Of a DNA stretch of 28,080 nucleotides, positions 8,671 through 27,764 are shown one piece after another. Below the pieces are notes generated by a model that was not told where the DNA came from, did not search any database, and saw only the letters and a program-made list of their open reading frames with translations. Every line of letters starts with the position of its first letter. Within the stretch, counting starts at the first letter, position 1. Origin of the DNA: a virus. Location: positions 1-28,080 of the IMG/VR virus record IMGVR_UViG_3300018417_002152; one strand, written 5' to 3'. The position numbers and the translations under genes are program-made.

Positions 8671-9660
8671 ATGTTTATAATGAATGATTTTACTCTTATT
8701 CCGTTCCAAAACATTGTAAAGTTCGGCCAAAAAACTATGCTAGATCAACCTTTATTCAATGTTAGTTGGATACTTGGTCGCTTTTGCAATTACAGTTGTA
8801 GTTACTGTTGGCCATATGCAAGAACGGATAAACCAGATCATCAAGAACTAGATGTCTACAAAAATACGATAGATGAAATTAAACGCCAGGCAAGAGATAA
8901 TGGATTTACTGAATTCCATTTTAGTTTTAGTGGAGGCGAGCCAACAGCGTACAAACACTTTGGAGAGCTTATAGAGCATTACTGTAGTGATACAGAAGCA
9001 CCTTACCAAAGTATACATATGACCACTAATCTATCTCCAGGTAGCAAATGGTGGAACAGATGGCTAGAAGCAACGAGTAAATTACAACGCAGAAGTATTA
9101 CTGCTAGTTTCCATTCTGAGTTTGCAAAGGAGCAAGAGTTTGGAGACAAATGTTTACAACTTATGGCTGACGGTGTATTAGTTACAATCAATCAAGTAAT
9201 GGTTCCTCACCATTTTGACGAGTATTATGAAAGGTGCAAACGATTTTCAGAAAGGGGTATTAATGTAACACTTAAACCACAAAGCGATCCAACTGCTAGT
9301 TTTATTGTAGATGGATATACTGTGAAACAACACTTAATGATGCAAGAACAATTTCCACAACACATAAAAGGTGAACAAGTTATGCAAATGTATTTTGAAG
9401 ATCACAAAGGTAACGATTACGGATTGGATCAAGCAGAAAGAATGAACGCATTTGACTTCAATAAGTTTAAAGATTGGAATTGCGCAGCAGGGTATCAAAG
9501 TTGCGTTATAAGGGGGGTGGAAGTTAAGAGAGCATATAGTTGTGCGGAAGAGCCTTTAGGCACGCTTACAGACGGTTTTACGCTGTTTAAAGCACCATCT
9601 AAATGCATTACTAGCACCTGTGTAAGTTCTGCAGACAGTAAAATACCAAAATCAAGATGA
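8671..9660 (+). CDS. Radical SAM protein with C-terminal Cys domain (rSAM 1)
   Basis: 329 residues. The radical SAM core starts early: the cluster-binding triad is Cys39, Cys43 and Cys46 in FCNYSCSYC. The SAM-binding strand reads FSFSGGEPTAYKHF near residue 88, and HMTTNLSPGSKWW follows near 115. The C-terminal 60 residues hold extra cysteines (NCAAGYQSC, AYSCAEEPLGTL, SKCITSTC) that look like a twitch or SPASM-type auxiliary Fe-S site. Such enzymes cleave SAM to a 5'-deoxyadenosyl radical and act on peptides, sugars or other small substrates. ATG at 8671 is open, but ATG at 8680 (MNDFTLIPF) is equally possible; neither has a good ribosome binding site. The stop overlaps the methyltransferase start as ATGA. 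It is closest in design to the proteins at 13212 and 19830. Confidence 0.9.
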   Translation: MFIMNDFTLIPFQNIVKFGQKTMLDQPLFNVSWILGRFCNYSCSYCWPYARTDKPDHQELDVYKNTIDEIKRQARDNGFTEFHFSFSGGEPTAYKHFGELIEHYCSDTEAPYQSIHMTTNLSPGSKWWNRWLEATSKLQRRSITASFHSEFAKEQEFGDKCLQLMADGVLVTINQVMVPHHFDEYYERCKRFSERGINVTLKPQSDPTASFIVDGYTVKQHLMMQEQFPQHIKGEQVMQMYFEDHKGNDYGLDQAERMNAFDFNKFKDWNCAAGYQSCVIRGVEVKRAYSCAEEPLGTLTDGFTLFKAPSKCITSTCVSSADSKIPKSR

Positions 9661-10262
9661 AAATAGATATACAAGATATAAAATTTTGGATGGATGCTAT
9701 TCGCAACAGCGATGACAGAAGTCGAACACTTGAAAGTTTTTGGGGAGGACAACTTCAATCCAAAACTTGGTTAATAGAATCTCTTGAAAGAAAATCACGT
9801 ATTGCAAATGCATCAGTTATTATTTTTGGTGGATGGAATGGTGTACTTGCTAGTATGTTGTTTAACAGTGAAATAGGAATAAAACATATTACAAGTGTAG
9901 ATATTGATCCTGTTTGCGAAGAAATAGCAAGAACAATGAATAAGCGACAAGAAATGGAAGGCAAGTTTGTTGCTGTTACAGAAGATATGTGTAACTTCCA
10001 TTACGACAAAAAACCTGACATAGTTATTAATACAAGTTGTGAACATCTGACCAAAGCACAATATAAAAAATGGTTGCAAAATGTTCCTAAAGATTGTAAA
10101 ATAGTACTACAAAGTAATGATTATAAAGAACTAGATGAACACGTAAATTGTGTATCATCTTTAGCAGCATTTAAAAAAAGCAGTGGCTTATCTTCATATA
10201 TGGTTGAGGATGAGTTACAATTACAAAAGTATATAAGATTTATGCTTATTGGACACAAGTAA
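9657..10262 (+). CDS. Class I SAM-dependent methyltransferase
   Basis: 201 residues with a Rossmann methyltransferase signature. Motif I is VIIFGGWNGVLASML near residues 54-68, in which the usual GxGxG is loosened to FGGWNG. Motif II is ITSVDIDPVCEEIA near 77-91, with the acidic SAM-ribose ligand Asp82 or Asp84. Further on, DMCNFHYDKKPDIVINTSCEHL near 108-129 corresponds to motifs III and IV. It transfers a methyl group from SAM; the acceptor is not evident. It sits between two radical SAM genes, overlapping the first by 4 bases and the second by 1 (TAATG), which implies one co-expressed pathway. I recall proteins of this pattern in marine phages. Confidence 0.8.
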   Translation: MKIDIQDIKFWMDAIRNSDDRSRTLESFWGGQLQSKTWLIESLERKSRIANASVIIFGGWNGVLASMLFNSEIGIKHITSVDIDPVCEEIARTMNKRQEMEGKFVAVTEDMCNFHYDKKPDIVINTSCEHLTKAQYKKWLQNVPKDCKIVLQSNDYKELDEHVNCVSSLAAFKKSSGLSSYMVEDELQLQKYIRFMLIGHK

Positions 10263-11260
10263 TGTATAACATAGATCAAATCAAATCAGTTCACCTTGAA
10301 GTGACATCTAAGTGTCAAGCAAAGTGCCCTATGTGTCCTCGCAGAATACAAGGCGGACCGCTCCTTGATACTTTATATCTTGAAGAAATAGATTTAGGCA
10401 CTTTTGTTAATTGGTTTCCAAGAGACTTTGTAAAACAGTTAGATGAATTGAATATGTGTGGTAATTTAGGAGATCCTATAATTGCAACAGACACTTTAGA
10501 AATATACAGATATCTTAGAGAAACCAATCCTATAATGCATTTACAAATGCATACTAACGGCAGTGCAAGGTCTATAGATTGGTGGAAAGAATTAGCAAGT
10601 TTGAATGTGCAAGTTGTGTTTGGTATAGATGGTTTAGAAGACACTCACTCTCTTTATAGAGTAAACACAGACTTTAACAAAATAATAAAAAATGCAACAG
10701 CATTTATACAAGCAGGTGGAGATGCTCGTTGGGATATGTTAGTGTTCAAACATAATGAACACCAAGTTAGTAAATGTGAACAGATGTCAAAAGAATTAGG
10801 CTTTACACATTTCTATCAAAAACACACAAGTAGATTCAGAGACGGTAAACTAGATGTTATAGATGATAATTACAATATAACACATACTTTGTATCCAACT
10901 ACGCATAGTGATAAAAACAGTGCAGGAGTTGAAAAAGCAAAACAAGATGTGTTACCTAACATCACTTGTAAAGCACAAAAATATAACCAAATATATGTTG
11001 CTGCTAACGGCGGTGTAAGTCCTTGCTGTTGGTTAGATTTAGAATGGGTGCCGCAGCATAGTTTTTCTCGTATAGATTATATGAGCAAAGTTAAAGAATA
11101 TCCTAATCTAAATAATAAAAGTCTTAGCGATATATTTGCAAGTGGCTTTTTTAGCAAAATATCAAGTTGCTGGTCAACTACAGGTTTGAAAGAATGTACA
11201 AGGCAGTGCGGCAACTTTGATAAATTAAATAAACAGTTTGTAGGGATACCAAATGAGTAA
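10262..11260 (+). CDS. Radical SAM/SPASM-like protein (rSAM 2)
   Basis: 332 residues. The radical SAM triad is Cys18, Cys22 and Cys25 in SKCQAKCPMCPRR. MCGNLGDPI near residue 64 takes the place of the usual GGEP motif, a change shared with the protein at 20794. MHTNGSARSIDWW and FGIDGLEDTHSLYRVN follow. The C-terminal part carries an auxiliary cluster set: CKAQKYNQIYVAANGGVSPCCW near 240-261, then CTRQCGNF at the end, as in SPASM domains. The protein is paralogous to the one at 20794-21798: IDGLEDT, RWxMLVFxHNxHQ and the closing C...C segment are shared. The first shares its ATG with the methyltransferase stop, and the end overlaps the next gene by 8 bases. Confidence 0.9.
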   Translation: MYNIDQIKSVHLEVTSKCQAKCPMCPRRIQGGPLLDTLYLEEIDLGTFVNWFPRDFVKQLDELNMCGNLGDPIIATDTLEIYRYLRETNPIMHLQMHTNGSARSIDWWKELASLNVQVVFGIDGLEDTHSLYRVNTDFNKIIKNATAFIQAGGDARWDMLVFKHNEHQVSKCEQMSKELGFTHFYQKHTSRFRDGKLDVIDDNYNITHTLYPTTHSDKNSAGVEKAKQDVLPNITCKAQKYNQIYVAANGGVSPCCWLDLEWVPQHSFSRIDYMSKVKEYPNLNNKSLSDIFASGFFSKISSCWSTTGLKECTRQCGNFDKLNKQFVGIPNE

Positions 11261-12569
11261 AACGTTTTGCCCGCTACCTTGGATACATATGGCGACTAGG
11301 CCTAATGGTGATGTGAGAGTTTGCTGTACAGCAAATGCAAGTGGTGCTGGCCCGGAAGATAATAAGACTGCAGGACTTGTAAAGAAAGACGGTATTGCTA
11401 TGAACTTGAGAGACCATACTATTGAAGAAGTATGGAATAGTGAACATATGCGTAACACAAGACTGCAAATGTTAAATGGTGAAGTACCTGTAAGTTGCAC
11501 AAAATGCTTTGATGAAGAAAGTAAAGGTGTAGTGAGCAAACGTCAATGGGAAACACGTGAATGGGAAGGAAAAATTGATATGAAAAACCTTGTAGATAAA
11601 ACACAAGAAGATGGTAGTTTGGAGGTTGATATTCCTTACTTTGATTTACGCTTAGGAAATGTATGTAACCTAAAATGTGTAATGTGTTCGCCGCACGATA
11701 GTTCAAGTTGGATTAAGGATTGGAGAAGTCAACAACCTAATTACAAAAATCCTATTCTAGCAAGTGATCAAGATTGGGATCAAAACTTTGATTACACTTG
11801 GTACAAGAAGGGAAGTTTTATTGAAAGTATGATGCAGCAAAGTCATAACATTCAGCAGTTATATTTTGCTGGCGGTGAGCCATTAATGATTCCCGAGCAT
11901 TGGAAAATATTACAAGAGCTAATAGCAGATGGTCACGCAAAAAATATTAAGTTAAGATATAACACCAATGGACACCCTCCTAGTATGAGAAAGGCTGTTA
12001 ACTATTGGAATCAGTTTAAAGAAGTTGTTGTAAATTTTAGTATGGATGGAACTGAACGTGTAAACAATTACATAAGACATCCAAGTGTATGGAGCGATCA
12101 ACTTGATGCATTCTATTACATTACACAAGAACTAGATAAAAATCATCAAGTTAATATTGCTTGTGCTGTACAAGCACTTAATGCACTTGACTTAACAAAT
12201 TTTGTAGAATGGTCAATACAAGCAAATCAAATTAATAATAAAAGAACACATATGGCTGCACCTTTTATTAATACACATTTTGTATATCTACCAAGTTATA
12301 TGAATATTAAAGTATTGCCTATAGAAATTAAAAACAAGGTGCGTAGAAATATCGAAGACTTTCTAATTAGGCATTCAAATGACAAGTACTTCAATGATCA
12401 TCCTATGGGCAGACAGCGTTGGGAAGGTATAATTAAATTTATGTACGCAGAAGATTGGAGTCATAAATTACCTGCATTAGTAGAATATTTAGACAGTTGT
12501 GATAAAACAAGAGGGACTGACTGGAGAGAAACATTTCCAGAGTTAGCGGAAAGTATAGATGGACAATAA
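11253..12569 (+). CDS. Radical SAM protein with N-terminal twitch domain (rSAM 3)
   Basis: 438 residues. An N-terminal Fe-S-type domain comes first: Cys6 in FCPLPWIHM, Cys24-Cys25 in VRVCCTA, and Cys82 and Cys85 in CTKCFDEE, followed by a conserved 'G..S.RQ.W' segment. The radical SAM core then begins with Cys138, Cys142 and Cys145 in NVCNLKCVMC; LYFAGGEPLMIPEH near 206-219 is the GGEP strand, and RYNTNGHPP and VNFSMDGT follow. This arrangement, an auxiliary cluster before the core, matches the family known as N-twitch radical SAM proteins; the spacing of the cysteines is the evidence. I infer a role in peptide or small-molecule modification. The 8-base overlap with the upstream gene and 11-base overlap with the following oxygenase point to one operon. 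Confidence 0.9.
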   Translation: MSKTFCPLPWIHMATRPNGDVRVCCTANASGAGPEDNKTAGLVKKDGIAMNLRDHTIEEVWNSEHMRNTRLQMLNGEVPVSCTKCFDEESKGVVSKRQWETREWEGKIDMKNLVDKTQEDGSLEVDIPYFDLRLGNVCNLKCVMCSPHDSSSWIKDWRSQQPNYKNPILASDQDWDQNFDYTWYKKGSFIESMMQQSHNIQQLYFAGGEPLMIPEHWKILQELIADGHAKNIKLRYNTNGHPPSMRKAVNYWNQFKEVVVNFSMDGTERVNNYIRHPSVWSDQLDAFYYITQELDKNHQVNIACAVQALNALDLTNFVEWSIQANQINNKRTHMAAPFINTHFVYLPSYMNIKVLPIEIKNKVRRNIEDFLIRHSNDKYFNDHPMGRQRWEGIIKFMYAEDWSHKLPALVEYLDSCDKTRGTDWRETFPELAESIDGQ

Positions 12570-13215
12570 AGAAATAGAAAGAGCATTACGTTGGCAAAGT
12601 CTAGTAAATCTAGGTAACCAAGTCAAACTTAAATGGAGCATAGATCATTATGCTGTTGAAAAACAATTAGAACAGTTTAAAGACAATTGGTGTCCGTATA
12701 ATGCTAAAAAGGATACACACAATAACAGATGGGGATTACCTATTACTAGTCACACAGGTGATGTTATGGACAATTATCATCTTAACAGTTTTGGTCATAT
12801 GCAAAAATATCACGATGTAGAAATGAAGGAAGAAAACTTCAATACACCTACAGACGTATATCATAAAATACCAGAACTTAAAAAAATAGTTGATGTGTTT
12901 TATCCTGACATAGGCCGTGTACATTTAGTACGTGTAGATCAAGGAGGATTCTTTCCTCCACATAGAGATTTTCACGGTACTAGTCCAGAGTATTTTAGAT
13001 TGTTAGTTGTATTTGGACGTTGTAGTCCAGAAAATTATGTACAACTTATCGATGGAAAGCCTTTGTATCCAGAAGCAGGATATGTGTACTTTACAAACTT
13101 TCAATTAGATCATAGTGTGTTTAGTTTTAGTGATAATTTGTACAGTCTTATTTTAACAGTGAAACTAAATGAGCGTACACAACAACTAATATTAGATAAC
13201 ACGATGGCAGAATGA
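12559..13215 (+). CDS. AspH/2OG-type non-haem iron oxygenase, arginine-less
   Basis: 218 residues. The C-terminal half carries a cupin/AspH-like fold: VHLVRVDQGGFFPPHRDFHG near 121-140 with metal residues His135 and Asp137, RLLVVFGRC near 147-155, AGYVYFTNFQLDHSVFSF near 173-190 with the distal His185. Where the 2-oxoglutarate-binding Arg is expected about ten residues later, the sequence reads DNLYSLILTV, without Arg, so co-substrate binding may differ. Aspartyl/asparaginyl hydroxylases act on side-chain beta carbons; the substrate here is unknown. The N-terminal 100 residues are helical and have no recognisable motif. It is flanked by radical SAM genes, overlapping them by 11 and 4 bases. 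Confidence 0.75.
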   Translation: MDNKEIERALRWQSLVNLGNQVKLKWSIDHYAVEKQLEQFKDNWCPYNAKKDTHNNRWGLPITSHTGDVMDNYHLNSFGHMQKYHDVEMKEENFNTPTDVYHKIPELKKIVDVFYPDIGRVHLVRVDQGGFFPPHRDFHGTSPEYFRLLVVFGRCSPENYVQLIDGKPLYPEAGYVYFTNFQLDHSVFSFSDNLYSLILTVKLNERTQQLILDNTMAE

Positions 13216-14117
13216 AGTTAATATATCAAGATACATCAAAAGAAAATTGGTTTTTAGTTAGTTGGACACTTAGCAATAAGTGTAACTATCGTTGTTCCTA
13301 TTGTCCTGAGCATTTACATAATGGTAGTACAGGCCAACCTAGGTGGGATACTGTTGAAAGATTCGTCAAAAATTTTACAGTACCCGGTAAAGATATTTGT
13401 TATAGACTAAGCGGTGGCGAACCTACATACTGGAAACATTTCATTGACCTTGCTAAACTTGTAAAAGAACAAGGGCATACTTTTAGTTTTCTTACAAATG
13501 GTAGTAGAGAAATAGAATACTATAAAGAAATAAGCCAATACACAGATGGTTATATTATTTCATATCATAATGAATATGCAAACTTACAACACATAAAAGA
13601 CATTATAAAAGTAAGTGATTGTCCTGTGTTTATAAATCTAATGCTTTCTCCTGATAACTTTGATGAAATGTTTGACATCGCAGAAGAAATTTATTTTAGT
13701 TCAGACAATGTAAGTATTTGGCCAAAAATTATTTTAGATAAATCCAATATAGATGCAATTACAAATACGCCTGCAAACTATAACAAAATACAATTAGAAA
13801 CAATTGACAACTGGCCATTCTTTAGAAAGTTACCTGATGCTAATTTACATAGAGGTGAACTTTTGTTAGATGAAAAACCTGTTACAGCAAACAATTTAAT
13901 AACTAACAATCAAAATACATTTTACGGTTGGAAGTGTTGGGCAGGATTACATATGATCAATGTAGATATGTGGGGCAACATATACAGAGCAGATTGTAAA
14001 GAGGGCGGAGCATTAGGCAATATAGAACGTTACAAGTTGCCTAAAGAAACAATTCAATGTGGCAAAGCAGTATGTGCTTGTCTAAGTGATATCTACTTAC
14101 GTAAAGAGACTGTCTAG
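13212..14117 (+). CDS. Radical SAM protein with C-terminal Cys domain (rSAM 4)
   Basis: 301 residues. The core opens with WTLSNKCNYRCSYC, ligands Cys24, Cys28 and Cys31; YRLSGGEPTYWKHF near 65-78 is the SAM-binding strand, and FLTNGSREIEYY near 95-106 is the next. The C-terminal domain is WKCWAGLHMINVDMWGNIY ... DCKEGGALGNI ... CGKAVCACLS, a twitch-like auxiliary site. It shares this layout with the proteins at 8671 and 19830. The stop lies 21 bases inside the end of the convergent gene at 14097, so the two transcripts overlap tail to tail. It probably ends the first plus-strand unit; no terminator is visible. Confidence 0.9.
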   Translation: MKLIYQDTSKENWFLVSWTLSNKCNYRCSYCPEHLHNGSTGQPRWDTVERFVKNFTVPGKDICYRLSGGEPTYWKHFIDLAKLVKEQGHTFSFLTNGSREIEYYKEISQYTDGYIISYHNEYANLQHIKDIIKVSDCPVFINLMLSPDNFDEMFDIAEEIYFSSDNVSIWPKIILDKSNIDAITNTPANYNKIQLETIDNWPFFRKLPDANLHRGELLLDEKPVTANNLITNNQNTFYGWKCWAGLHMINVDMWGNIYRADCKEGGALGNIERYKLPKETIQCGKAVCACLSDIYLRKETV

Positions 14118-15182
14118 TTCAGGGCAAACGTCAAGTACATTTGTACCACGCAATTTATCAACTTTATTTGTAAAATCAATAAACTGTTCAAGTTCAGCAG
14201 GGCGCGATGAATGTCTGTATCCTGTTCCTTCAAGTATATGTTCAGGAAGTATTTGTGGATTCAAGTAAGCAGGTGTTGTAACAACATTGTTTACATATAA
14301 TTCATAGTGTGGCTTTTTAATTTTAAAGAACCAGTCTACAATATCTTTTACGTGGCACACATTGTATGTCATAATAGTGCCTGCAAAAATTAGTCTATCC
14401 ATTTTATCTAAATGCTGTAAGTTATCTACTAGTTGTTCGAAAGGAAAGTTATCACCACCCCTAATGTATTCGTATAACTTGCCTGTGCCTTCAATACTAA
14501 TATGCCATTTAGTTTCTTTAAATTGATGAGCTAATTCGTCAAACTCTAAATCTACAACAGTACCATTAGTGCTAATATCAAGTGTAATATTTTTTGCAAG
14601 ATCAAGTTCAATAAGTTTTTGCATAATTTGTTTGTTAGCAGGTTCCATATATGGTTCACCTCCCTTGATATTAACATACTGTAAGTTCTTAAAATATTCA
14701 GGATATGCAAACAAATTATCTACAATGTCAGGTGAAAGATTTCTGTAACCAAAGTCTGGTTCGTGAATAGGTCTTTGTACACCCATTTTATCAAGTTTTA
14801 AATCTTCCTTAATCCAAGCAGTACTGTTTACACCACTACACATTCTGCACTTAAGATTACACAAATTACTCATATTAAATTCTAAGAAATATATGTCATT
14901 TCGTAAGTTGCTCTCTGGTTTTAGCATAGGATTTAGAACTTGCTCAAAAAACTTTCTTCTGCTATGTCCATTTGTATTTTCTTTAAGTGTACATTGAGAA
15001 CAATTACTAGGAAACTGACCTTGAGCAATAGTACGCTGAGTGTGTATCAATCCAGGATTACGGAATATAGTTGGTAGATCTTCTCTAAGCAGGTTACCGT
15101 GACGTCCTGTATACACACAGTCAGGTACAACATCTCCGTTGAATCTTATACTAAGAGCGTGCCAAGGTGCAAAGCACTTCAT
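14097..15182 (-). CDS. Radical SAM protein with N-terminal twitch domain (rSAM 5)
   Basis: 361 residues. N-terminal cluster: Cys3 in MKCFAPWHALS, Cys22 in PDCVY, Cys61 and Cys64 in CSQCTLKE, then the HSRRKFFE segment. The core triad is Cys108, Cys112 and Cys115 in NLCNLKCRMC. YVNIKGGEPYMEPAN near 168-182 is the GGEP strand, and LDISTNGT and WHISIEGTGKLYEY follow. The ATG follows AGAGGA by 8 bases and lies 32 bases inside the beta-propeller gene upstream. It belongs to the N-twitch group with the proteins at 11253, 17923 and 21831. Substrate unknown; coexpression with two repeat proteins and a small kinase suggests they act together (inference). Confidence 0.9.
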   Translation of the reverse strand: MKCFAPWHALSIRFNGDVVPDCVYTGRHGNLLREDLPTIFRNPGLIHTQRTIAQGQFPSNCSQCTLKENTNGHSRRKFFEQVLNPMLKPESNLRNDIYFLEFNMSNLCNLKCRMCSGVNSTAWIKEDLKLDKMGVQRPIHEPDFGYRNLSPDIVDNLFAYPEYFKNLQYVNIKGGEPYMEPANKQIMQKLIELDLAKNITLDISTNGTVVDLEFDELAHQFKETKWHISIEGTGKLYEYIRGGDNFPFEQLVDNLQHLDKMDRLIFAGTIMTYNVCHVKDIVDWFFKIKKPHYELYVNNVVTTPAYLNPQILPEHILEGTGYRHSSRPAELEQFIDFTNKVDKLRGTNVLDVCPELDSLFT

Positions 15183-16296
15183 AACTCAAATCCTCTTTTA
15201 TACTATACAGGTGGTGCTCCGACGATATTGTGTCATAGCCTATTACACACAGTTTGTCATCAAAAATTATTGGCCTTCCAAAAAGGGTGTTGCCAAAGTA
15301 AATGCTGTCAAGTTCATCTCCATCTTTACTTATTTTAAAAATAGGACAACTTGGTGTGCCACTTGGAATAAAATATGCATACCCTTTGTACTCTATACCA
15401 CATCTATATCTATACTTTCCACCGTGCGTTATACCTATATCAAATTGTTTACTTTGTTTTGTAACTGTATTGAATACAAGTCCCCAGTTGCTTTCTCCGT
15501 GTTCTGTGCCATAGGGTAATGCTACAATATTGTCCCCTACAAGTACACCGCCGTTATATTTTTTAGCAAAGTCTACACCTTTTATTTCGTGGTAAGTTGC
15601 TTTGTTTGTATCTGTATCAAATTCAACAATTGTGTTTAGACCTTTAGTTTCGCCAAATGGCAAACTGTATAAAGTATTACCTTTTACAATAATATCACTA
15701 TACTTTCTAGTAATGTTAGGATCAACTTCTAGTTCGTAACTTGTAAATTGTGTTCCGTCAAAACTTAGTAAACTTGTATATCCTGGTTGATCGCCTCTTG
15801 GCATACTCCAATAACGCCCATTACAAAACACTGTACCCATATGTAATTTTTTGCCTTTATGTGGTAAAGGGTGTATTGACAGTTTACCGTTGTTAATATA
15901 GATAGCATTATTTGTTCCTTCGTAGCCTAAAGGAAAACTAAAAGCAGAATTCCATTCGTAATTTATTGCTACACTATAGAATTGTCCTTTACCTGTAAAT
16001 GGTAATTTATGCTTTATAATTGCTCCTGGCTTCATTTCAGTAACAATATTTAGATCATCGTATATACCATAGGGTATGAACCAAGCACTGTCTCCTAGCA
16101 CTGCCACAGCATTTGTTTTACTTGTGCTAGGTGGCAAATCTAAATTCATATACTTTCCATCTAACCATACATCGCTGTAACTTTTACACAAGTCCGTAGC
16201 AAATGGAGGACTTAGTAACTTGCCTTGGTATTCAGCAAGTAACAGATGCTTAATCTTAGTTTCTTTGTAGTAATCTTGAAACTCTTTATATGCCAT
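15151..16296 (-). CDS. Repeat protein, putative beta-propeller (copy 1)
   Basis: 381 residues built from about seven blades of roughly 50 residues, each with a Gly/Pro-rich core: WFIPYGIYDD near 71-80, FSFPLGYEGTN near 118-128, WSMPRGDQPGY, YSLPFGETKG, VALPYGTEHGESN, YFIPSGTPSC, with the next strand often ending in a D/N such as LLSFD, IVEFD and LVFN. This 'hydrophobic-P-[YRF]-G-E' repeat fits a beta-propeller like kelch or WD folds, where such loops are exposed on one face. No signal peptide is visible, so it is probably cytoplasmic, and it has few cysteines. It overlaps the preceding propeller gene by 11 bases and the radical SAM gene downstream by 32. It may bind a glycan, protein or small molecule, or act as a scaffold or substrate of the neighbouring enzymes. 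Confidence 0.72.
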   Translation of the reverse strand: MAYKEFQDYYKETKIKHLLLAEYQGKLLSPPFATDLCKSYSDVWLDGKYMNLDLPPSTSKTNAVAVLGDSAWFIPYGIYDDLNIVTEMKPGAIIKHKLPFTGKGQFYSVAINYEWNSAFSFPLGYEGTNNAIYINNGKLSIHPLPHKGKKLHMGTVFCNGRYWSMPRGDQPGYTSLLSFDGTQFTSYELEVDPNITRKYSDIIVKGNTLYSLPFGETKGLNTIVEFDTDTNKATYHEIKGVDFAKKYNGGVLVGDNIVALPYGTEHGESNWGLVFNTVTKQSKQFDIGITHGGKYRYRCGIEYKGYAYFIPSGTPSCPIFKISKDGDELDSIYFGNTLFGRPIIFDDKLCVIGYDTISSEHHLYSIKEDLSYEVLCTLARS

Positions 16297-17509
16297 TTAG
16301 GTCTACCGTTTTAATTACTTGTTCTTTAATAGTATCAAATACTAACACAGTTTGGAAACTATCACTTTCTCCATATGGAAAAGCAAATATAATATCATCC
16401 TTAATAACACAATTGTTATATTTTTCTATAGTAGTACTATCTTTGAAATATTCACTTACATCTACAGTGTAAAATTCAGTTGTATCTGTATCGACAACTA
16501 AAACCTCTGCAAGGTCGCCTTGACTTTTCCAAGTATCTTCTGGTTCGCACACACAGCCTCCTCTTGGAATGTAATATATTTTACCGTGATTGTTTTCAAT
16601 ACCTGCAAAATATTTTTTGCTTTCTTTACCTATGCCAAGATCCATAGTTCTCCACGTATTAGTAAAACTATCTACAATAAGCATTTCGCTCCAATCTTCA
16701 TCGTGTCCAGCAGGCGGAAAAAATATTTTGCCATTACGTGCAACAGTATGAGCATAATATTTCCTACTAGTTGTCTGCTGTCCTGTTTTATTATATTGCC
16801 AACCTTTTTCTGTTTTCATTGCAAGAAAGTCAAAGAATTTACTTTCGCTGTAAGGCGGCGCAAAAAGTTTGTTACCTACTTTTGCAAGTGTTGTAAATTT
16901 TTTATTTGCAGTCCTGTCTTTATCATAATCAGCCCATACATCACTTATGTCAATAAGATTATAATTGTTATGCATACAATCATATTCTAGTCTGTAAGGA
17001 AAGAATACATCGTGTTTTTCACCTCGCGGCATTCCATATATGATACCATCTATCATTTGTGTTGTATGCCACATCTTTGTGTCTTGTACAGGAATATCTA
17101 ATTGCAATAATTTGTAAGTATGATCAATTATGTTAAAGTCTAAAACTAAATTGTAGTGTTCGTGTTCACCATATGGAATGGCAATTATGCGATCACCGTA
17201 TATGTGTCCTTGCACATATTTTCCTTTACCTGGTATTTGTAATTTAACATATTCTACATTATCATTATTAGTATCAACAATAAGAATACTGCTTTCATTG
17301 TAAGGTAAAAAATAAATTTTATTTCTGTAGACTATACCTTTCTGCCATTTTTCTGTGCTGCTATCTACTTGCAATGGTATTTTAGTTATGGCATACGTGT
17401 TAGGATCCATCTTTAGCATATAGTCAATAGATTCTGTAAGTCCATATGGTGGAACATAAATCATACCGTTGTTTCCAATGGTAGCGTAACTAAATGCTTG
17501 AGGGGTCAA
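16286..17509 (-). CDS. Repeat protein, putative beta-propeller (copy 2)
   Basis: About 407 residues with eight repeats of the same design: YVPPYGLTES, YFLPYNESS, IAIPYGEHEHY, YGMPRGEKHD, FAPPYSESK, FFPPAGHDED, YYIPRGGCVC and FAFPYGESDSF, each followed by a strand ending in Asp (LKMD, LIVD, VLVVD, VLVFD). The regularity supports a closed eight-bladed beta-propeller. The start is a TTG; the frame is open from TTG at 17521, but TTG at 17509 has GGAG six bases before it and is preferred. It overlaps the kinase-like gene by 20 bases. Copy 1 downstream is a diverged paralogue, since the loop motif is shared but the sequences differ widely. Binding partner unknown. Confidence 0.75.
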   Translation of the reverse strand: MTPQAFSYATIGNNGMIYVPPYGLTESIDYMLKMDPNTYAITKIPLQVDSSTEKWQKGIVYRNKIYFLPYNESSILIVDTNNDNVEYVKLQIPGKGKYVQGHIYGDRIIAIPYGEHEHYNLVLDFNIIDHTYKLLQLDIPVQDTKMWHTTQMIDGIIYGMPRGEKHDVFFPYRLEYDCMHNNYNLIDISDVWADYDKDRTANKKFTTLAKVGNKLFAPPYSESKFFDFLAMKTEKGWQYNKTGQQTTSRKYYAHTVARNGKIFFPPAGHDEDWSEMLIVDSFTNTWRTMDLGIGKESKKYFAGIENNHGKIYYIPRGGCVCEPEDTWKSQGDLAEVLVVDTDTTEFYTVDVSEYFKDSTTIEKYNNCVIKDDIIFAFPYGESDSFQTVLVFDTIKEQVIKTVDLNGI

Positions 17510-17936
17510 ATAATTCTCCAAATGCTGATTGTAGGTCTGCTTTTAATTTTGTATGTATAGTTTCTTTATCGTAAATGCCTACGTTGTCCCAATCTACCAT
17601 ATGCATAACATCTCCGTCAACTATAATATTACTTAACACCCAATCTCCGTGTGCATATGGAAGTGTGCTATTAATTTGGTTAACACAAAACTTACACACC
17701 TCATCACAAAACTCTGGTGTATGTTTTAATTTACTTGCAGGGTGTCCTAGGTATCTTGTGAAATCTATATAATTTTCTCCAACAAATTTAACATAACCAG
17801 GTTGCACCTTGTTTAGTATTTCAGCGTGTTGTTGCATCCATACTGAATCTTTATCATACCAAAACTTTCTAATGGTGTCACTATCTTTGAGATATACAGC
17901 ACGTTTCTTTTCTGTGTTTTGCTTAATCAAGTCCAT
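17490..17936 (-). CDS. Minimal aminoglycoside-phosphotransferase-like kinase
   Basis: 148 residues. The C-terminal part has the APH/choline-kinase catalytic signature: YAHGDWVLSNIIVDGDVMHMVDWDNVG, in which Asp98 of HGDxxxxN is the catalytic base, Asn103 binds metal, and Asp115 of VDWD binds the second metal. Upstream, EILNKVQPGYVKFVGENYIDFTRYLG near 39-64 could be what is left of the small lobe or hinge. A typical APH protein is 250 residues or more with a complete N-lobe and Lys; here the N-lobe is missing or much reduced. It would phosphorylate a hydroxyl of a small molecule, sugar or lipid if active. It overlaps the radical SAM gene upstream by 14 bases and the propeller gene downstream. 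Truncation, or use of a separate partner, cannot be told apart. Confidence 0.7.
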   Translation of the reverse strand: MDLIKQNTEKKRAVYLKDSDTIRKFWYDKDSVWMQQHAEILNKVQPGYVKFVGENYIDFTRYLGHPASKLKHTPEFCDEVCKFCVNQINSTLPYAHGDWVLSNIIVDGDVMHMVDWDNVGIYDKETIHTKLKADLQSAFGELFDPSSI

Positions 17937-18957
17937 ATGCTTTTGCTACCTCTGGCAAGTAATCTTTTATATGCACATTTCTAAATGTATCAAGTTTAGT
18001 AATATATTCTACAAACTTTGCCTGTGCTGTAGGATCTGCTTCACCTATTTTCCATTCGTCTATATATTTAAACTGTGACTTTAGACTATCAGGTGCATTT
18101 TTAACGTGCAGCCAATCAGGATATACAAGTAAATTATCCCATACTTTCATATTCATTTTATCTGCCCATTCTTTTATTTCATCTTGATACAATGCATTAA
18201 GCACACTAGTACAAGGTGCAACATCACACTTGTAAAGATCTTTGTATATATCTACATTGCGGCTTATAGTTTCCCAATTGCTACCATACCTAATGTATTC
18301 TATTTTTCTATCTACTGCATCTAAACTTAAACTCATTATAACACGATCGAAGCGTTTAAGCAACTCGTGTACTTTAGGATTGTAAAGTGTCGCATTCGTA
18401 TTAAAACGTACTGTTACACTACTGTCTAGTCTTTCTAAAAACTGCGGTAAGTGTTTTACCATCATAGGTTCGCCGCCTGTCAGATAAACTTCTTTCAAAG
18501 GTAAATTTTCAAAGTAATGTAGATATCTTTCGTCATACCAATTGTAGTTAGGTATGTCAAGTATTTGATGAACAGGTATAATGCCTTTGCGTTGCATTGA
18601 AACTGCTTCTTCTGCAATGCTGCTACTTGCACCACTATGACAACTTATACACTGTAGGTTACAACTATTTCCAAATCTCAAATCTAAATGTGTAAGTCCA
18701 GGGCCATAATGTTCTTTAAGTTGCCTTCGACTTTTCAAACCTTTTTCTTCGTGTAACTTACAACCTTCACAAGCATCAGGCCATTCATCACGTGCTAATT
18801 GTTCTTTTGCTTTTGTAACTGTAGCACTGTTTAACCATTGTTGAGGAGTGTGTGTATGTACATTTTCAATATTGTCTGGTTCGTTACTAGTACAACACAT
18901 ACGGTATTGACCGTTTGCAGCAATGTAACTGTGACTTTCTAATAAACTACATCTCAT
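17923..18957 (-). CDS. Radical SAM protein with N-terminal twitch domain (rSAM 6)
   Basis: 344 residues. N-terminal cluster: Cys3 in MRCSLLESHSYIAANGQYRMCC with Cys21-Cys22, then Cys63 and Cys66 in CEGCKLHEEKGLKSRRQL. The core triad is Cys99, Cys103 and Cys106 in NSCNLQCISC. YLTGGEPMMVKHL near 157-169 is the GGEP strand, VRFNTNATLYNP and VIMSLSLDAVDRKIEYIRYG follow, as in the N-twitch family. The start is coupled to the preceding gene through ATGA. Its downstream partner is the kinase-like gene, overlapping by 14 bases. The pattern matches the proteins at 11253, 14097 and 21831, with a shared arrangement but strongly diverged sequence. Confidence 0.9.
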   Translation of the reverse strand: MRCSLLESHSYIAANGQYRMCCTSNEPDNIENVHTHTPQQWLNSATVTKAKEQLARDEWPDACEGCKLHEEKGLKSRRQLKEHYGPGLTHLDLRFGNSCNLQCISCHSGASSSIAEEAVSMQRKGIIPVHQILDIPNYNWYDERYLHYFENLPLKEVYLTGGEPMMVKHLPQFLERLDSSVTVRFNTNATLYNPKVHELLKRFDRVIMSLSLDAVDRKIEYIRYGSNWETISRNVDIYKDLYKCDVAPCTSVLNALYQDEIKEWADKMNMKVWDNLLVYPDWLHVKNAPDSLKSQFKYIDEWKIGEADPTAQAKFVEYITKLDTFRNVHIKDYLPEVAKAYGLD

Positions 18958-19817
18958 AACATTTTTGCCTGCTGAATTAGTTCATCAGTGTTTTCTTTAA
19001 TAGGAGTAATTTTAACATCTACAATATTTTTGTATTCGCTTAAAAAGTAAGTCCATTCGTCACGTGCTTGATTGTGTACATTGTTCCATTCTAAAGGCAT
19101 AACAAGTTTACCTACAACAATATAACCTAGTGCCATATCAAGCGTAATTGGTTTATAGGTATGTTGCTTATACCATTCAACAAAATGTTTAGTGACAGTA
19201 TATGGTGTTTCGTATGCAGGCCTGTATAACATATAACCTTCACAATTTATGTGCTTCTGCGGTACGACACTATCTATTTTATCTGCTTCATTACGTCCTG
19301 CGATCTCTAACCAATGCTTACCAAGAGTGTTATATCCCATACATAAGTCACCGTACCCTCTGTCCATTTTAAAAAACAGATAATCTTCGTTACTAAGATC
19401 AGTAGTGGTTGCACCTTCAAATCTAAAAAAACTGTTTATGCGAGGTACATCTCTGTTACTTAGAAACTGTTCATAAACGTGTATTAGCCTATTAAGTTTA
19501 TCATAATCATCATTTGGATCTGCTTGTTCTACTAATTCGTGTAGTTCATTAAGTGTAAGTGATTTATCCAAACCTAACTTATCTATAAGTTCTGCCATTT
19601 GTTCTAATAATTTTTCTTCGTCTTTGTTATCTAAAACAAAACTTGTTTCTTGCACTAATGGCTTTGTTATATTTTCTTTTAACAATTGTAAAAATTTACA
19701 AGCAGGCGGATGATCGTACAACACATACGTCAATGGTAGTAAATCTTTTCCGTTAGAGTATGTGACAGTTAGGCCAGGTTTGTTCCAATATATACTGTAC
19801 TGGTTTTGTGTACTCAC
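18954..19817 (-). CDS. Unrecognised protein, about 287 residues
   Basis: I do not recognise this family. The gene starts best at GTG 19817, with GGAG six bases upstream (19824-19827); a TTG at 19835 would add six residues without a good site. Residues 75-125 are Leu/Glu/Asp-rich and helical (LLEQMAELIDKLGLDKSLTLNELHELVEQ), and the segment INSFFRFEGATTTDLSNEDYLFFKMDRGYGDLCMGYNTLGKHWLEIAGRNEAD, about residues 128-180 from the GTG start, looks like a mixed alpha/beta core. There is no signal peptide or membrane span and few cysteines, so it is not an Fe-S enzyme. It heads the minus-strand unit that includes rSAM 6, the kinase, the propellers and rSAM 5. It might be a substrate-binding or scaffold protein of the island (inference). 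Confidence 0.6.
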   Translation of the reverse strand: MSTQNQYSIYWNKPGLTVTYSNGKDLLPLTYVLYDHPPACKFLQLLKENITKPLVQETSFVLDNKDEEKLLEQMAELIDKLGLDKSLTLNELHELVEQADPNDDYDKLNRLIHVYEQFLSNRDVPRINSFFRFEGATTTDLSNEDYLFFKMDRGYGDLCMGYNTLGKHWLEIAGRNEADKIDSVVPQKHINCEGYMLYRPAYETPYTVTKHFVEWYKQHTYKPITLDMALGYIVVGKLVMPLEWNNVHNQARDEWTYFLSEYKNIVDVKITPIKENTDELIQQAKML

Positions 19818-19823
19818 TAAATA
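19816..19823 (+). promoter_or_regulatory. Late promoter-like ACTAAATA before rSAM 7
   Basis: ACTAAATA followed by CTCCGT and the ATG at 19830. The TAAATACTCC part is identical to the common extended form of T4 late promoters; the usual first T is replaced by C. On the other strand the same CTCC reads GGAG, the ribosome binding site of the divergent gene. Evidence is sequence similarity only. Confidence 0.4.
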
Positions 19824-19829
19824 CTCCGT

Positions 19830-20813
19830 ATGCAACTTACTAAATTAACAGATCATCATCCAAGCGAATTAGTCAATATTAACTATCAAATGGGTAATAC
19901 TTGTAATTATGCCTGTTGGTACTGCTTCCCAGGCAGTAATGAAGGTACATATCGCTGGCCAAATTTTGAACTAGCCAAAAATAACTTAGAACACATAATA
20001 GATTGTTATAAGAAATCAGGTAAGACACGCTTTAATATTGACCTAATAGGAGGTGAGCCTACACTGTGGCCGGAGTTAGGAAAGTTTACAAAGTACTTTA
20101 GACAATTAGGTTGTACTTTCCATTTAAGTACAAACGGTAGTCGCAGCATTAATTGGTGGAAAAAGCACGGTGGTGAATTTGATACAATTTACATTAGTTG
20201 TCATCATCAACGTATTGACGTAGAACACGTAAAAGAACTAGCAGATATGCTTTGGCAAGAACATAACAATGTTATTTGTGATGTACTTATGGACACAAAA
20301 GATTGGCAAAAATGTGTTAACATTGTAGATAGTTTATTAGATAGTAAAACAAGTTTTCCTGTAAATGTAAAACCTATCAAGTTAGGAGATGTTACACAAG
20401 ATACAAATTATGATCAATCACAGTATCTATTAGATCAAAGAAAACGTGATCCTAAACAAGACGAAATATTTAAACCTAAAAGAAAGAAGCCGCCAGTACA
20501 GTTAACATTAGAAGATGGAAGCAAACAAGATGTAAGCAAAAATTATATCCTAATTAATAATCTAAATAAGTTTGAAGGATGGACCTGCAACTTAGGAGTA
20601 GATACAATTTTTATAAACTTCGACGGAAGTATAGGAAGTGTATGTGGCAATAATTTATTAGGATTTAAATCAGGAACTTACAATTTATACGATATAGATC
20701 TACCTAATAAGTTTCATCCTGTTGTAAAACCAGTAACTTGCGAACAGAAGAAATGTATGTGTCAAGTTGGCTTTCTATTAGAAAAACACAATCCTACGTA
20801 CCACACACTTTAG
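19830..20813 (+). CDS. Radical SAM protein with C-terminal Cys domain (rSAM 7)
   Basis: 327 residues. The core triad is Cys25, Cys29 and Cys32 in NTCNYACWYC. NIDLIGGEPTLWPEL near 68-82 is the SAM-binding strand, and FHLSTNGSRSINWW follows near 97-110. A Lys-rich, probably exposed stretch (RKRDPKQDEIFKPKRKKPPVQ) lies around residues 205-230. The C-terminal segment is WTCNLGVDTIFINFDGSIGSVC ... CEQKKCMCQVGF, the same auxiliary Cys pattern as in the proteins at 8671 and 13212. It has no ribosome binding site but an ACTAAATA motif just before it. It is a single gene between two divergent and convergent neighbours: it starts near the divergent gene and its end overlaps the convergent gene by 20 bases. 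Confidence 0.9.
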   Translation: MQLTKLTDHHPSELVNINYQMGNTCNYACWYCFPGSNEGTYRWPNFELAKNNLEHIIDCYKKSGKTRFNIDLIGGEPTLWPELGKFTKYFRQLGCTFHLSTNGSRSINWWKKHGGEFDTIYISCHHQRIDVEHVKELADMLWQEHNNVICDVLMDTKDWQKCVNIVDSLLDSKTSFPVNVKPIKLGDVTQDTNYDQSQYLLDQRKRDPKQDEIFKPKRKKPPVQLTLEDGSKQDVSKNYILINNLNKFEGWTCNLGVDTIFINFDGSIGSVCGNNLLGFKSGTYNLYDIDLPNKFHPVVKPVTCEQKKCMCQVGFLLEKHNPTYHTL

Positions 20814-21798
20814 AACATATATCATATCTGTTTTCATTCTTCCAACTTTCAGGCAAGTAAGTTGAGAACCATTCACTATTAAGTATTTCTTCTAAACTGT
20901 AATCATCTACATTTAACCAATCAATACTTGCAACATCTTTAGCATATGGACTTTCAGGATTACGTGGCCATCTGTCACTAAGGAAATAACAGCAAGGAAA
21001 TACTTCTCCTGTATGACTAATTTGCACTTTACGTTTCACCTGCCATTTACATTTAATAACACTTGTGCTGAAATCTTGGATTGATTTAATACGTTCTACA
21101 TTATCAAGATATTTTGAATCATATTTTATTTCACGTGCTTTGTCTTTTTTATTTGCTTTAAATTTTTCAATTGCTTTATCAGCAAGACTATTAATCGCAC
21201 TGAATGTGTGTCCGCCATTAATATCAAACTTTTTAAATCCCATTGCAAATGCAAGTTCTTCACATTCTTCTATTTGATGTGCGTTATGTTCAAACACAAG
21301 CATACGCCATCTAGCCAAACCTCCTGCACCTATGTACGTTTGTGCATTGGCCATAATTTTATCCCATAAAACTCCTCGTCTATAAAGATGGTTTGTATCT
21401 TCTAGTCCGTCAATAGAAAAGGTTACGTGACTCGGCTCTGGAAACTTTTGCATTACTTGTGCTAGTTCTTTCCATTGTGTGCCTAAGCCGCCGTTTGTGT
21501 GTATAGTAATCACCGGAGGCGTATCTGAAATTTCCAAAATGTATTCTAGTGCAGGTATTAGGTTAGGGTTGAATATAGGGTCGCCATAACTGCCATTAAA
21601 TATAACTTCTTTGATTTGGTTTGCAACTTGCGGAGTAAACAGGTTTTTCCAAGTTTCTAAACTCATATGCTCTAATGGCATTCTTGGATTTACTGTTACA
21701 CCATCAATGTTTCTGCTGCAATTTCCGCACATAGAATTACAGTGACTAGTAAAATCTATCACAATCGCTTCTAAATCATTCAACTTTATGTATGGCAT
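20794..21798 (-). CDS. Radical SAM/SPASM-like protein (rSAM 8)
   Basis: 334 residues, paralogous to the protein at 10262. The core triad is Cys20, Cys24 and Cys27 in SHCNSMCGNCSRN. The usual GGEP strand reads FNGSYGDPIFNP near 68-79, IHTNGGLGTQWKEL and FSIDGLEDTNHLYRR follow, and RWRMLVFEHNAHQ is shared nearly word for word with the other copy. The C-terminal auxiliary domain is KCKWQVKRKVQISHTGEVFPCCYF ... CSKVCGT. The start ATG follows TATAAGTA by 5 bases with no ribosome binding site. Its stop region overlaps the end of rSAM 7 by 20 bases. Substrate unknown; paralogue pairs of this type often act on related but different substrates. Confidence 0.9.
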   Translation of the reverse strand: MPYIKLNDLEAIVIDFTSHCNSMCGNCSRNIDGVTVNPRMPLEHMSLETWKNLFTPQVANQIKEVIFNGSYGDPIFNPNLIPALEYILEISDTPPVITIHTNGGLGTQWKELAQVMQKFPEPSHVTFSIDGLEDTNHLYRRGVLWDKIMANAQTYIGAGGLARWRMLVFEHNAHQIEECEELAFAMGFKKFDINGGHTFSAINSLADKAIEKFKANKKDKAREIKYDSKYLDNVERIKSIQDFSTSVIKCKWQVKRKVQISHTGEVFPCCYFLSDRWPRNPESPYAKDVASIDWLNVDDYSLEEILNSEWFSTYLPESWKNENRYDICSKVCGT

Positions 21799-21813
21799 AA
21801 GTATACTTATACT
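21799..21813. promoter_or_regulatory. Palindrome in the 32-base divergent gap between rSAM 8 and rSAM 9
   Basis: AAGTATACTT (21799-21808) is a perfect 10-bp palindrome, and AGTATA with TATACT (21800-21813) forms a second inverted repeat. On the minus strand the same bases give TATAAGTA, one change from the T4 late TATAAATA, then TACTT and the ATG of rSAM 8. It may be a dual operator or promoter; chance in an AT-rich region is possible. Confidence 0.4.
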
Positions 21814-21830
21814 AGAAAAGTGCTACTATA

Positions 21831-23126
21831 ATGAATCAAGAACCGATTAAATTCGTCGATGCTGTAAAGGCTGCCAATTTAGATAAAACTCTAGATGGCA
21901 GTGCTATGTGTGCTATGAAGTGGATACACTTTTATATCCATCTCAAAGAAGGCATTGTAAAGAATTGTCACAATGTTCCACATAGGCATATTTCGCAACA
22001 AGAACTAGATGAGTATGGTAAAGACGTATTTGTAAACCATCCTTACGAAGTAGAACGTAGGAAAGAAAAACTTGCAAATATAAAACACTCCGACTGTAGT
22101 GCTTGTTGGCGTAATGAAGAAAGAGGAATACGAAGTCCTCGATTACCTAAAGCATATTATGACTTTCATAGAAAGAGATTTGACGAACCAATTGATGAAT
22201 TAAAAGCAATGCCTAGTCAATTAGAAGTTTATTTTAATAATACTTGTGATTTGAAATGTGTGTATTGTAATGAAACGTTCAGCAGTCAATGGGAGATAGA
22301 GAATCGTAAATTTGATGTAAAGCCAAGTGAAAAGAAAGTAGCACCAGAAGGTTTGAAAGAAGTGTTCTATGAATGGTTAGAACAAGATGCTGTACCTTAC
22401 ATATTACAGTATTATGTGCTTGGCGGCGAACCTTTGATACAAAATGAAACATATGAGTTTATAGATAGATTAATACCTATGCTAAAAGCACAACAAAATA
22501 AATTTAAAATTAAGCCTGTGCTAATTGTTATCAGTAACGGTAACACACCAAAAGCATATCTAGATAAGTGGTTACGTAAGATAGAAGAAATAGAACCTTA
22601 TGTTACTGTGCAAATGGATATCAGTATGGAAAGTTTTGGTCGCAGAGCAGAATTTGTAAGAACAAATTTAGTTTGGGATAGATTTGCTGCTAACATAGAA
22701 CGCATTATAGAATTTAGTGCTGACAAAGATATGCGTATTAGATTTAGTACGACTCATAATGTTTTAAGTATAACAAGTTGTTTAGATTTATTAAAATGGT
22801 TACATAGTTTATCTAAACAATACGATGTAAAATTAGATTTGATACGTAGTAATGTATCATATCCTAAACATCTAAGTCCGTGGATGCTTACCAGTAAATA
22901 TAACAATTATATTTCTGACATAGTATCTTGGATTACAGAACACGCACCTGAATGGAAAGACTATGCAGACTTTATGCAATCTATAGGCGACAGTTTTGGT
23001 AAGCACACTGAAGCAGATAGAATTGCAGCAGCAGAATGGATAGACACAATGAAAGTAAGACGTAACTTACACTTACTAGAATATTTTCCTGAGATGCGTC
23101 CTTGGGAGGAATATATCAATGGATAG
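21831..23126 (+). CDS. Radical SAM protein with N-terminal twitch domain (rSAM 9)
   Basis: 431 residues, the largest of the N-twitch group together with the protein at 11253. N-terminal cluster: Cys27 in MCAMKWIHFYIHLKEG, Cys46 in KNCHN, Cys89 and Cys92 in CSACWRNEERGIRSPR. The core triad is Cys139, Cys143 and Cys146 in NTCDLKCVYC. YYVLGGEPLIQNETY near 198-212 is the GGEP strand; a distinctive VLIVISNGNTPKAYLDKW near 227-244 and VQMDISMESFGRRAEF near 258-273 follow. It heads the plus-strand unit that runs through three oxygenase genes, an SDR and hemE to the window edge. It overlaps the first oxygenase by 8 bases. Confidence 0.9.
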   Translation: MNQEPIKFVDAVKAANLDKTLDGSAMCAMKWIHFYIHLKEGIVKNCHNVPHRHISQQELDEYGKDVFVNHPYEVERRKEKLANIKHSDCSACWRNEERGIRSPRLPKAYYDFHRKRFDEPIDELKAMPSQLEVYFNNTCDLKCVYCNETFSSQWEIENRKFDVKPSEKKVAPEGLKEVFYEWLEQDAVPYILQYYVLGGEPLIQNETYEFIDRLIPMLKAQQNKFKIKPVLIVISNGNTPKAYLDKWLRKIEEIEPYVTVQMDISMESFGRRAEFVRTNLVWDRFAANIERIIEFSADKDMRIRFSTTHNVLSITSCLDLLKWLHSLSKQYDVKLDLIRSNVSYPKHLSPWMLTSKYNNYISDIVSWITEHAPEWKDYADFMQSIGDSFGKHTEADRIAAAEWIDTMKVRRNLHLLEYFPEMRPWEEYING

Positions 23127-27162: not shown

Positions 27163-27764
27163 AAGTAGTAATTACAGGTAGTAAGAAGTCTGGTATTAAA
27201 CCAGGTATACATAAAATGAATGCCTGGCTGCACGAATACTTTTCACAGTTTGATCTTGTTCAAATTAGTAGAACAACAGGATATGATTTTGATACTGACT
27301 ACGACAAAGCAGTAGAAGTAGCAAGGACTGCTGATATATTTGTAAACAGTGCTTGTGTAAAAGACTATCAATTAAAGTTTTTGAATGATGTATATGGACA
27401 CGTTCCTACAATAATATGCTTAGGAAGTATTGCAGGCGATATGTTTGGTGCACCACAGAAGTATGATAACCATCCTAACTATCCTGAAGTGAAACACGAA
27501 CTAAAAGAAAGATGCAAATGGATACAACTAGAAAAAAAGCAAGGTGTAAAAACAAATCTTTTACATTTAAATATCACAGAAACTAAAGAAGTAGAGTGGA
27601 ATACAGAGGGATTAGACAAAAATCAATTGTTTAATACATTAGACTTTTGGTTGAACAATCAATACATATCAAACATTGGTTATAAGTTTTGGTCAGAAAA
27701 CTACGGCGAGCAAAAACTTGCAAAAGTAAAAGGAGTGGTAGACCACTTCAAACAGAGGAAATAA
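27159..27764 (+). CDS. SDR-type NAD(P)-dependent oxidoreductase
   Basis: 201 residues, short for a classical SDR (about 250). The Rossmann start is [16 protein letters not shown], with the TGSxxxGI nucleotide-binding loop. ADIFVNSA at 59-65 corresponds to the NNAG strand, [10 protein letters not shown] at 85-94 to the Ser strand (Ser90), and Tyr108-x-x-x-Lys112 in NYPEVK to the catalytic YxxxK pair. It would oxidise an alcohol or reduce a ketone with NAD(P). It shares 4 bases with the fusion gene and its stop TAA shares an A with the hemE start. In the context of the oxygenases, an SDR could oxidise the hydroxyl that they add (inference). Confidence 0.8.

Follow-up and report, generated by a model that had tools for sequence, protein, structure and literature searches.

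The window analysed here is the entire IMG/VR record IMGVR_UViG_3300018417_002152 (28,080 bases); the record is classed as linear, and the window is therefore perhaps a fragment. It carries an island of nine radical S-adenosylmethionine (rSAM) enzyme genes, mixed with methyltransferase-like, oxygenase-like, kinase-like and propeller genes. The core genes of this island form a real unit, which recurs in contigs apparently belonging to T4-superfamily phages and has homologous cassettes in bacteria. The recurring partners look glycan-related. The best reading, which we put at about even odds, is a pathway of bacterial type that uses radical chemistry to alter glycans of the surface or the fibres. 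A sequence-only reading had placed the island at 8671 to 23126; the block extends beyond 23126 to 27764, which adds AspH2 to AspH4, X491 and X201.

The block is tightly packed. Between 8671 and 27764 only 32 of the 19,094 bases lie outside any open reading frame (ORF), and neighbouring genes overlap by 1-32 bases, as had been claimed from the sequence; R8 and R9 are instead separated by a 32-base gap, the single one. On the plus strand lie R1 (8671-9660), MT (9657-10262), R2 (10262-11260), R3 (11253-12569), AspH1 (12559-13215) and R4 (13212-14117). On the minus strand follow R5 (14097-15182), propA (15151-16296), propB (16286-17521), kin (17490-17936), R6 (17923-18957) and X287 (18954-19835). 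R7 (19830-20813, plus), R8 (20794-21798, minus) and R9 (21831-23126, plus) come next, and AspH2 (23119-23898), AspH3 (23883-24578), X491 (24579-26054), the AspH4 fusion (26044-27162) and X201 (27159-27764), all on the plus strand, complete the block.

The recurrence of the block has been studied in IMG/VR contigs. Scanning with propB gives 56 loci, and the best 80 of 134 relatives were taken for R3, which makes 136 loci via propB or R3. Sixty loci hold X491 together with R1 or R2 along half of the length or more, and dropping rows with identical rounded identities leaves 43 rows, in which presence means at least 40% identity. These rows are not independent lineages (at least one contig is counted twice, as L039 and L130), and propB, R3, X491 and R1-or-R2 all entered their recruitment or selection. 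MT, R2, R3, R4, kin, R6, AspH3 and X491 (the last a selection criterion) are found in all 43 rows, and R1, AspH1, R5, propA and propB in 35; in the eight rows without R1 the sequence ends at or near R1. The AspH4 fusion gene is present in 32 of the 43, R8 in 28, AspH2 in 12, R9 in 9, X287 and R7 in 8 each and X201 in 7. The order recurs as well: R1, MT, R2, R3, AspH1 and R4 run in one direction and R5, propA, propB, kin, R6 and R8 in the opposite one, followed by AspH3, X491 and the fusion of a phosphatase motif to a hydroxylase. MT and R2 are exchanged in position in some contigs. Of 74 loci newly fetched in a set recruited with R1, 41 were usable, having 4 kb or more downstream, with the same strand alone considered; MT lies downstream in 40 of them, R3 in 39 and R2 in 30. 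The gene-order search proposed by the sequence-only reading thus finds a conserved block repeatedly in viral contigs, and the repeated order and co-occurrence argue that the core is a unit. The earlier proposal of a single dedicated system carried by a phage is supported as far as a unit goes, and gp23 on some of the records agrees with it (see below), though X287, R7, R9 and AspH2 are add-ons seen mostly in the lineage of the window itself.

That there is no joint pathway, and that separate auxiliary genes have collected in a hypervariable locus, is a disfavoured and very unlikely explanation. It can draw on the variable accessory genes and on the uneven identity to relatives along the block (in L008, 93% for AspH1 and 50% for propA), the latter also being as expected from exchange. 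Against it stand the presence of the core genes in every row, with the selection just noted, the adjacency of homologues on bacterial chromosomes and strong purifying selection. In 18 island genes dN/dS (the ratio of nonsynonymous to synonymous substitution rates) is 0.02-0.14 relative to L002 and L003; it reaches 0.27 relative to two more distant relatives, where dS is partly saturated. By this measure the nine rSAM genes are under strong purifying selection.

All nine ORFs with CxxxCxxC are present at the starts named by the sequence-only reading, and the claim that their Cys triads are intact is borne out by alignments with relatives (6 to 38 sequences each), in which CxxxCxxC and at least four additional Cys are invariant for each enzyme. 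PF04055 matches all nine in hmmscan and exceeds the gathering score in eight; R9 reaches 28.9 against 29.5 bits, and it exceeds the cut-off of the NCBIfam model N_Twi_rSAM (NF033640) with 211 against 170 bits. A separate genome-level PF04055 search gives eight places, with R9 included and R8 absent. Three architectures can be distinguished. R3, R5, R6 and R9 have an N-terminal twitch domain and all pass NF033640 (408, 236 and 220 bits for the first three). R2 and R8 are radical SAM/SPASM proteins with C-terminal SPASM, over the cut-off for both PF04055 and PF13186. R1, R4 and R7 have conserved C-terminal Cys (R1 being twitch-like; PF04055 58.1, 49.1 and 43.1 bits) and fall below every NCBIfam cut-off listed. 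With NF033640, R1, R2, R4, R7 and R8 score 19 to 48 bits, under the 170 required. Chance motifs as the source of the nine are ruled out by the Pfam and NCBIfam scores, the invariant Cys and dN/dS. When compared by sequence with solved structures, R4 matches the rSAM core of tetraether synthase 7tol (E 1e-5) and R2 a doubtful stretch of 5jmu only (E 7e-4); no credible match arises there for R3, for the GT-A-like gene discussed below, for the profile of its family or for that of X491.

The carriers of the block would be T4-superfamily, jumbo-like phages. The T4 major capsid protein gp23 is found on 6 of 20 records holding the block, and rSAM genes on all 20 (6 to 10 matches each); no capsid gene is recognized within the window. 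The gp23 of G007 is nearest to that of Vibrio phage 2.275.O (71%), followed by PA5oct- and CBB-type phages (67-68%), so that its closest kin are jumbo T4-like phages. Long fibre-like genes lie close to the block in G007 and G004, and a 4,937-residue neighbour in G004 probably corresponds to VrlC as it appears in the available passages of PMC7029224. In pelagimyophages, the host recognition cluster is hypervariable and contains tail fibres, glycosyltransferases (GTs) and rSAM cassettes (PMC7029224), and the island would belong with such phage loci for host recognition or surface modification. However, those passages of PMC7029224 give no composition, order or function for the rSAM genes, and the gp23 of G007 has its nearest relatives in jumbo T4-like phages that infect other hosts. 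A pelagimyophage affiliation, which the papers suggest, is unsupported by this gp23.

Among 50,697 phage records there is no near DNA match to positions 8000-28080 of the window, and protein searches of phage records with propB, X491, AspH3 and the GT-A-like gene find none. R5 and R3 match two Vibrio phages only, except that R3 also matches one short marine single-cell record; the plasmids searched with R3 give no match. Vibrio phage K566 (L154; cultured, 255 kb) has four rSAM genes of the N-twitch type, two above the NF033640 cut-off and two below, and they alternate with genes that are GT-like by eye. Its strong N-twitch rSAM matches number five, again with two over the cut-off. The Vibrio phages K566 and K567, of which K566 was examined, thus resemble the island in the way that rSAM genes of this type are mixed with GT-like ones. 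They differ in that the N-twitch type alone is recognized and identity to the island's proteins is about 21-31% over partial lengths.

Counterparts of the block also occur in bacteria. The bacterial searches covered the phylum of G021 (368 genomes), and the label Oligoflexia/Bdellovibrionales follows the titles of metagenome-assembled genomes (MAGs). Scanning genome contigs with R3 gives three relatives, all in MAGs titled Oligoflexia or Bdellovibrionales. One bacterial cassette has consecutive R8-, R3-, R4-, MT- and R2-like genes; in others R1 (49-52%) adjoins R2, with R3 next to or near them. The identity of R1 to bacterial proteins is about 45-53%, and the R1 alignment matches 22 of the 368 genomes at E of 1e-30 or below. 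Fifteen R1 loci were fetched, from 15 of the 22 positive genomes (L270 and L280 are near-copies), and per-locus counts were read manually: R3 (at least 40% identity) and an R2/R8-like gene are each found in 14, MT in 7 and a member of the GT-A-like family in 9. The MT alignment finds G021 itself only among the 58 genomes of its class. X491 homologues are found in 12 of the 368 genomes, five of which are R1-positive (hypergeometric p 3e-4, the genomes not being independent). Of seven bacterial loci fetched, four have an AspH3 homologue directly adjoining an X491 homologue, and one bacterial X491 homologue is followed by a homologue of X287 (24% identity). Large arrays occur in L294 (9 CxxxCxxC ORFs) and L295 (10), over 19-20 kb. 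The Oligoflexia/Bdellovibrionales-type cassettes are therefore like the island in R1, R2/R8, R3, R4, MT, the AspH3-X491 pair and the GT-A-like gene, in varied adjacencies, and unlike it in having no full counterpart of propB and gene sets that vary by genome.

In the R1 tree, phage and bacterial proteins are split by one fully supported branch, and the MT tree has the same split, with long branches. Both trees would fit a single ancient transfer between phage and bacteria, whose direction we can only infer. Several other features of the bacterial loci can be recorded here. The two rSAM clusters of one bacterial genome (L158 and L159) each adjoin an ABC operon, which we take to be GldA/F/G-like. 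A phage gene (L141 17421-18389) and a gene of a bacterial rSAM array (L294 2991-4067) are related (22% identity, E 1e-9); both are amidinotransferase-like by eye and have no Pfam match. In L266 (G136:C21), a bacterial contig with housekeeping-type genes by eye, R1 adjoins homologues of fibre-like and GT-like phage genes. A fibre-like gene as a general bacterial partner is ruled out, one being found beside R1 in only 1 of 368 genomes.

The partners point to glycans in several ways. In G007 and G004 a GT-A-like gene directly precedes R1. In the alignment of its family D57 is near-invariant and D59 invariant, a pattern that we take to be the DxD of GT-A enzymes, and PF00535 scores 29.8 bits in one bacterial member, over its cut-off of 23.3. 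The best 80 of 405 relatives of this gene were recruited, and 77 of the 80 loci were counted: R1 directly follows in 63. In the remaining 14, R2 and then R1 follow in nine, an MT-like gene stands directly behind in three, MT is 5 kb away in one, and one has nothing within reach. X491 may combine a GT-A-like half with a methyltransferase-like half, an assignment held with modest confidence. In its model (pLDDT, the predicted local distance difference test, 79), GT-A chains lead the structure matches of residues about 16-266 (Z about 9), and methyltransferases match residues 268-481 with Z up to 8.7. In G007, UDP-sugar dehydrogenase and DegT aminotransferase families adjoin the block, and the flank of the window itself encodes a KDO-8-phosphate synthase that passes curated cut-offs. 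Of the Pfam families among 119 other bacterial neighbours, Glycos_transf_2 occurs most often (13), no control region having been scanned. The GT-like genes between the rSAM genes of Vibrio phage K566 speak for glycans as well.

Several points weigh against a glycan pathway. When counting starts from R1, only 35 of 68 loci have the GT-A-like gene immediately upstream, and in the window it is not upstream of R1. In the GT-A-like family, just 2 of the 21 members aligned match the GT model Glycos_transf_2 (E 0.01), and profile comparison of that family with X491 gives no match. For X491 the best Foldseek E is 0.005, and its Z values of 8-9 lie close to the background quoted for the tool. The richness in GTs may merely reflect the host-recognition locus. 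The Asp/Arg hydroxylases and a Trp_halogenase-family neighbour would suit protein modification equally, propB has one partial match in the 368 bacterial genomes, and the analysis found no substrate or product of the island.

If the pathway does act on glycans, it would be one multi-enzyme pathway of bacterial type, kept by T4-superfamily, jumbo-like marine phages beside their tail-fibre genes. The partner GTs, namely the GT-A-like gene that precedes R1 in many relatives and the half of X491 that is GT-like, would build or extend a glycan, whose sugar carbons the rSAM enzymes would rework by epimerization, oxidation, deoxygenation, cross-linking or similar reactions. The methyltransferases would methylate and the Fe/2-oxoglutarate (Fe/2OG) enzymes hydroxylate, with the kinase/phosphatase-like and propeller genes serving accessory steps. 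The product would decorate either the envelope of the infected cell, so that a receptor is masked or replaced, or the phage's own fibres.

The chief rival, possible although doubtful, is protein modification in trans: the rSAM, Asp/Arg hydroxylase and flavin enzymes would act on a tail fibre or the propellers, without a small precursor. Relatives of the block adjoin fibre-like genes, and a bacterial fibre-like homologue stands beside R1 in the one genome mentioned. Of the two repeat proteins noted from the sequence, propB is a beta-propeller by its model (pLDDT 87), which matches propellers with Z up to 23.7; propA, for which the Pfam scan gives no match, is a repeat protein presumed to be one. 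Across 21 sequences propB shows eight P-x-[GNSC] motifs with hardly any variation, a count by which it probably has 8 blades. L144 17356-18603 is by eye a further propeller-like repeat protein, with no Pfam match. Of the 43 rows, 35 have all three of AspH1 (at 40% identity or more), propA and propB, and 8 have none of them, which favours the protein reading; but 5 of the 8 propeller-less rows keep a distant AspH1 relative (30-33%) at a different place, which weakens the link. Downstream of the block in L138 (10175-11293) lies a Trp_halogenase-family gene (PF04820, 251 bits), and similar genes by eye lie downstream in L143 (3620-4720) and L144 (15194-16354). The NCBIfam models nearest to this neighbour, both far under cut-off, are QhpG and LodB, which are protein-modifying. 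According to the available part of PMC12390700, a structural cluster of the cultured Aeromonas phage 332-Vera contains eight rSAM genes alongside five tail-fibre genes. The bacterial cassettes, on the other hand, mostly have no propeller or fibre-like genes and often have GT-like ones.

The hydroxylases and the remaining small enzymes vary in how well they can be assigned. AspH1 is 2OG oxygenase-like, with H135, D137 and H185 invariant; a profile comparison relates it to AspH3 (probability 88%, E 3e-6), the Pfam scan gives no oxygenase match, and it falls short of the 22.6 bits of PF05118. It is the sole oxygenase-like gene between 8671 and 23126, where the sequence-only reading had spoken of oxygenases in the plural. 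AspH2 (21.8 bits, slightly under the cut-off) is Asp/Arg hydroxylase-like, and AspH3 (49.6 bits) and the AspH4 fusion (46.2 bits; phrog_5614) pass PF05118, the fusion having a phosphatase-motif domain in which CTHGESRS was identified by eye. MT is class I methyltransferase-like (PF13649 21.4 bits, under the cut-off of 27). Kin resembles a mini APH/choline kinase, with weak matches to PF01636, PF01163 and PF01633, all under cut-off, and with H96, D98, D115 and D117 invariant in its alignment. X287 has no assigned family; it starts with TTG and is 293 residues long, rather than the 287 first given. X201 is an ORF without a clear family in Pfam and PHROG scans.

Proteusin (polytheonamide) pathways combine rSAM, Fe/2OG and methyltransferase chemistry and feature a nitrile-hydratase-like leader and a peptidase/exporter. 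The island is like them in this chemistry, and AMP-binding and Trp_halogenase-family genes are added in some relatives. The comparison drawn by the sequence-only reading nevertheless fares poorly, and a phage-borne pathway for such a ribosomally synthesized and post-translationally modified peptide, or for another small natural product, is very unlikely. With its 32 uncovered bases the block has no room for a precursor gene, and has GT-like partners instead. A precursor inside the block is thereby ruled out, one elsewhere in the genome being still conceivable. The ORF listings of relatives (at least 40 residues), in a look short of a systematic search, revealed no small precursor-like ORF. No nitrile-hydratase-like leader or peptidase/exporter has a Pfam match among the 30 proteins of the window, which may be a fragment. 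The better lead is the earlier remark that sugars, too, are substrates of SPASM/twitch enzymes.

Modification of nucleic acids or cofactors, such as queuosine-like bases, is the least probable explanation and highly improbable. PTPS-family and HemE-family genes flank the block, and a QueE-like PHROG weakly matches several enzymes. However, no DNA-modification partner is recognized in the block, and the bacterial counterparts accompany GT genes. HemE (uroporphyrinogen decarboxylase family) lies directly after the island at 27752-28078 and is complete at 27590-28600 (L138) in the near-identical contig G018. On the other side of the window are a phage gene of the eukaryotic-type phosphomannomutase family (537-1241; PF03332 95 bits), a protein that is GT-like by eye only, with no match in family searches (1800-2615, minus), and KDO-8-phosphate synthase (2627-3403, minus; TIGR01362 321.8 bits, cut-off 314; NF003543 330.9, cut-off 242).

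Phages rich in rSAM genes have been mentioned in passing (PMC5332604; PMC7029224; PMC12390700, each as far as available). The earlier statement that no phage system of this composition is described thus needs qualifying; it stands for the block itself, since the open-access literature searched gives no account of the block, its function, its partners or its bacterial counterparts. TARA_ERS488813_N000010, a T4-like genome of 183 kb with 12 rSAM genes, is perhaps of the same kind, as judged by description only. In the available text these genes are treated as auxiliary genes related to iron-sulphur clusters, with no island or partners described (PMC5332604). Phage 332-Vera differs in belonging to the Chimallinviridae and is likened to the island by description, not by compared sequences; the same excerpt applies the words "highly unusual" to a phage genome with many rSAM genes, of which 332-Vera has eight and the window nine (PMC12390700). 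In Tasman Sea viral samples, rSAM and GT genes are prevalent, as far as the accessible passages go (PMC7150976).

Relatives of R1 are found in at least 581 stretches of IMG/VR contigs (the best 80 were taken), which makes this a common marine viral gene set. More tentatively than the glycan pathway itself, the island might be a maturation line whose rSAM enzymes, as many as nine, work one after another on a single scaffold, a glycan or a repeat or fibre protein. They would create a new chemical surface by which the phages control adsorption; such a line, possibly a previously undescribed class, would be common to Bdellovibrio-like bacteria and jumbo-like phages of the sea. Through its counterparts in bacteria and the Vibrio phages in culture, the chemistry of the island is open to testing. 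If its product is indeed a surface or fibre decoration, radical chemistry would be linked to phage host recognition.

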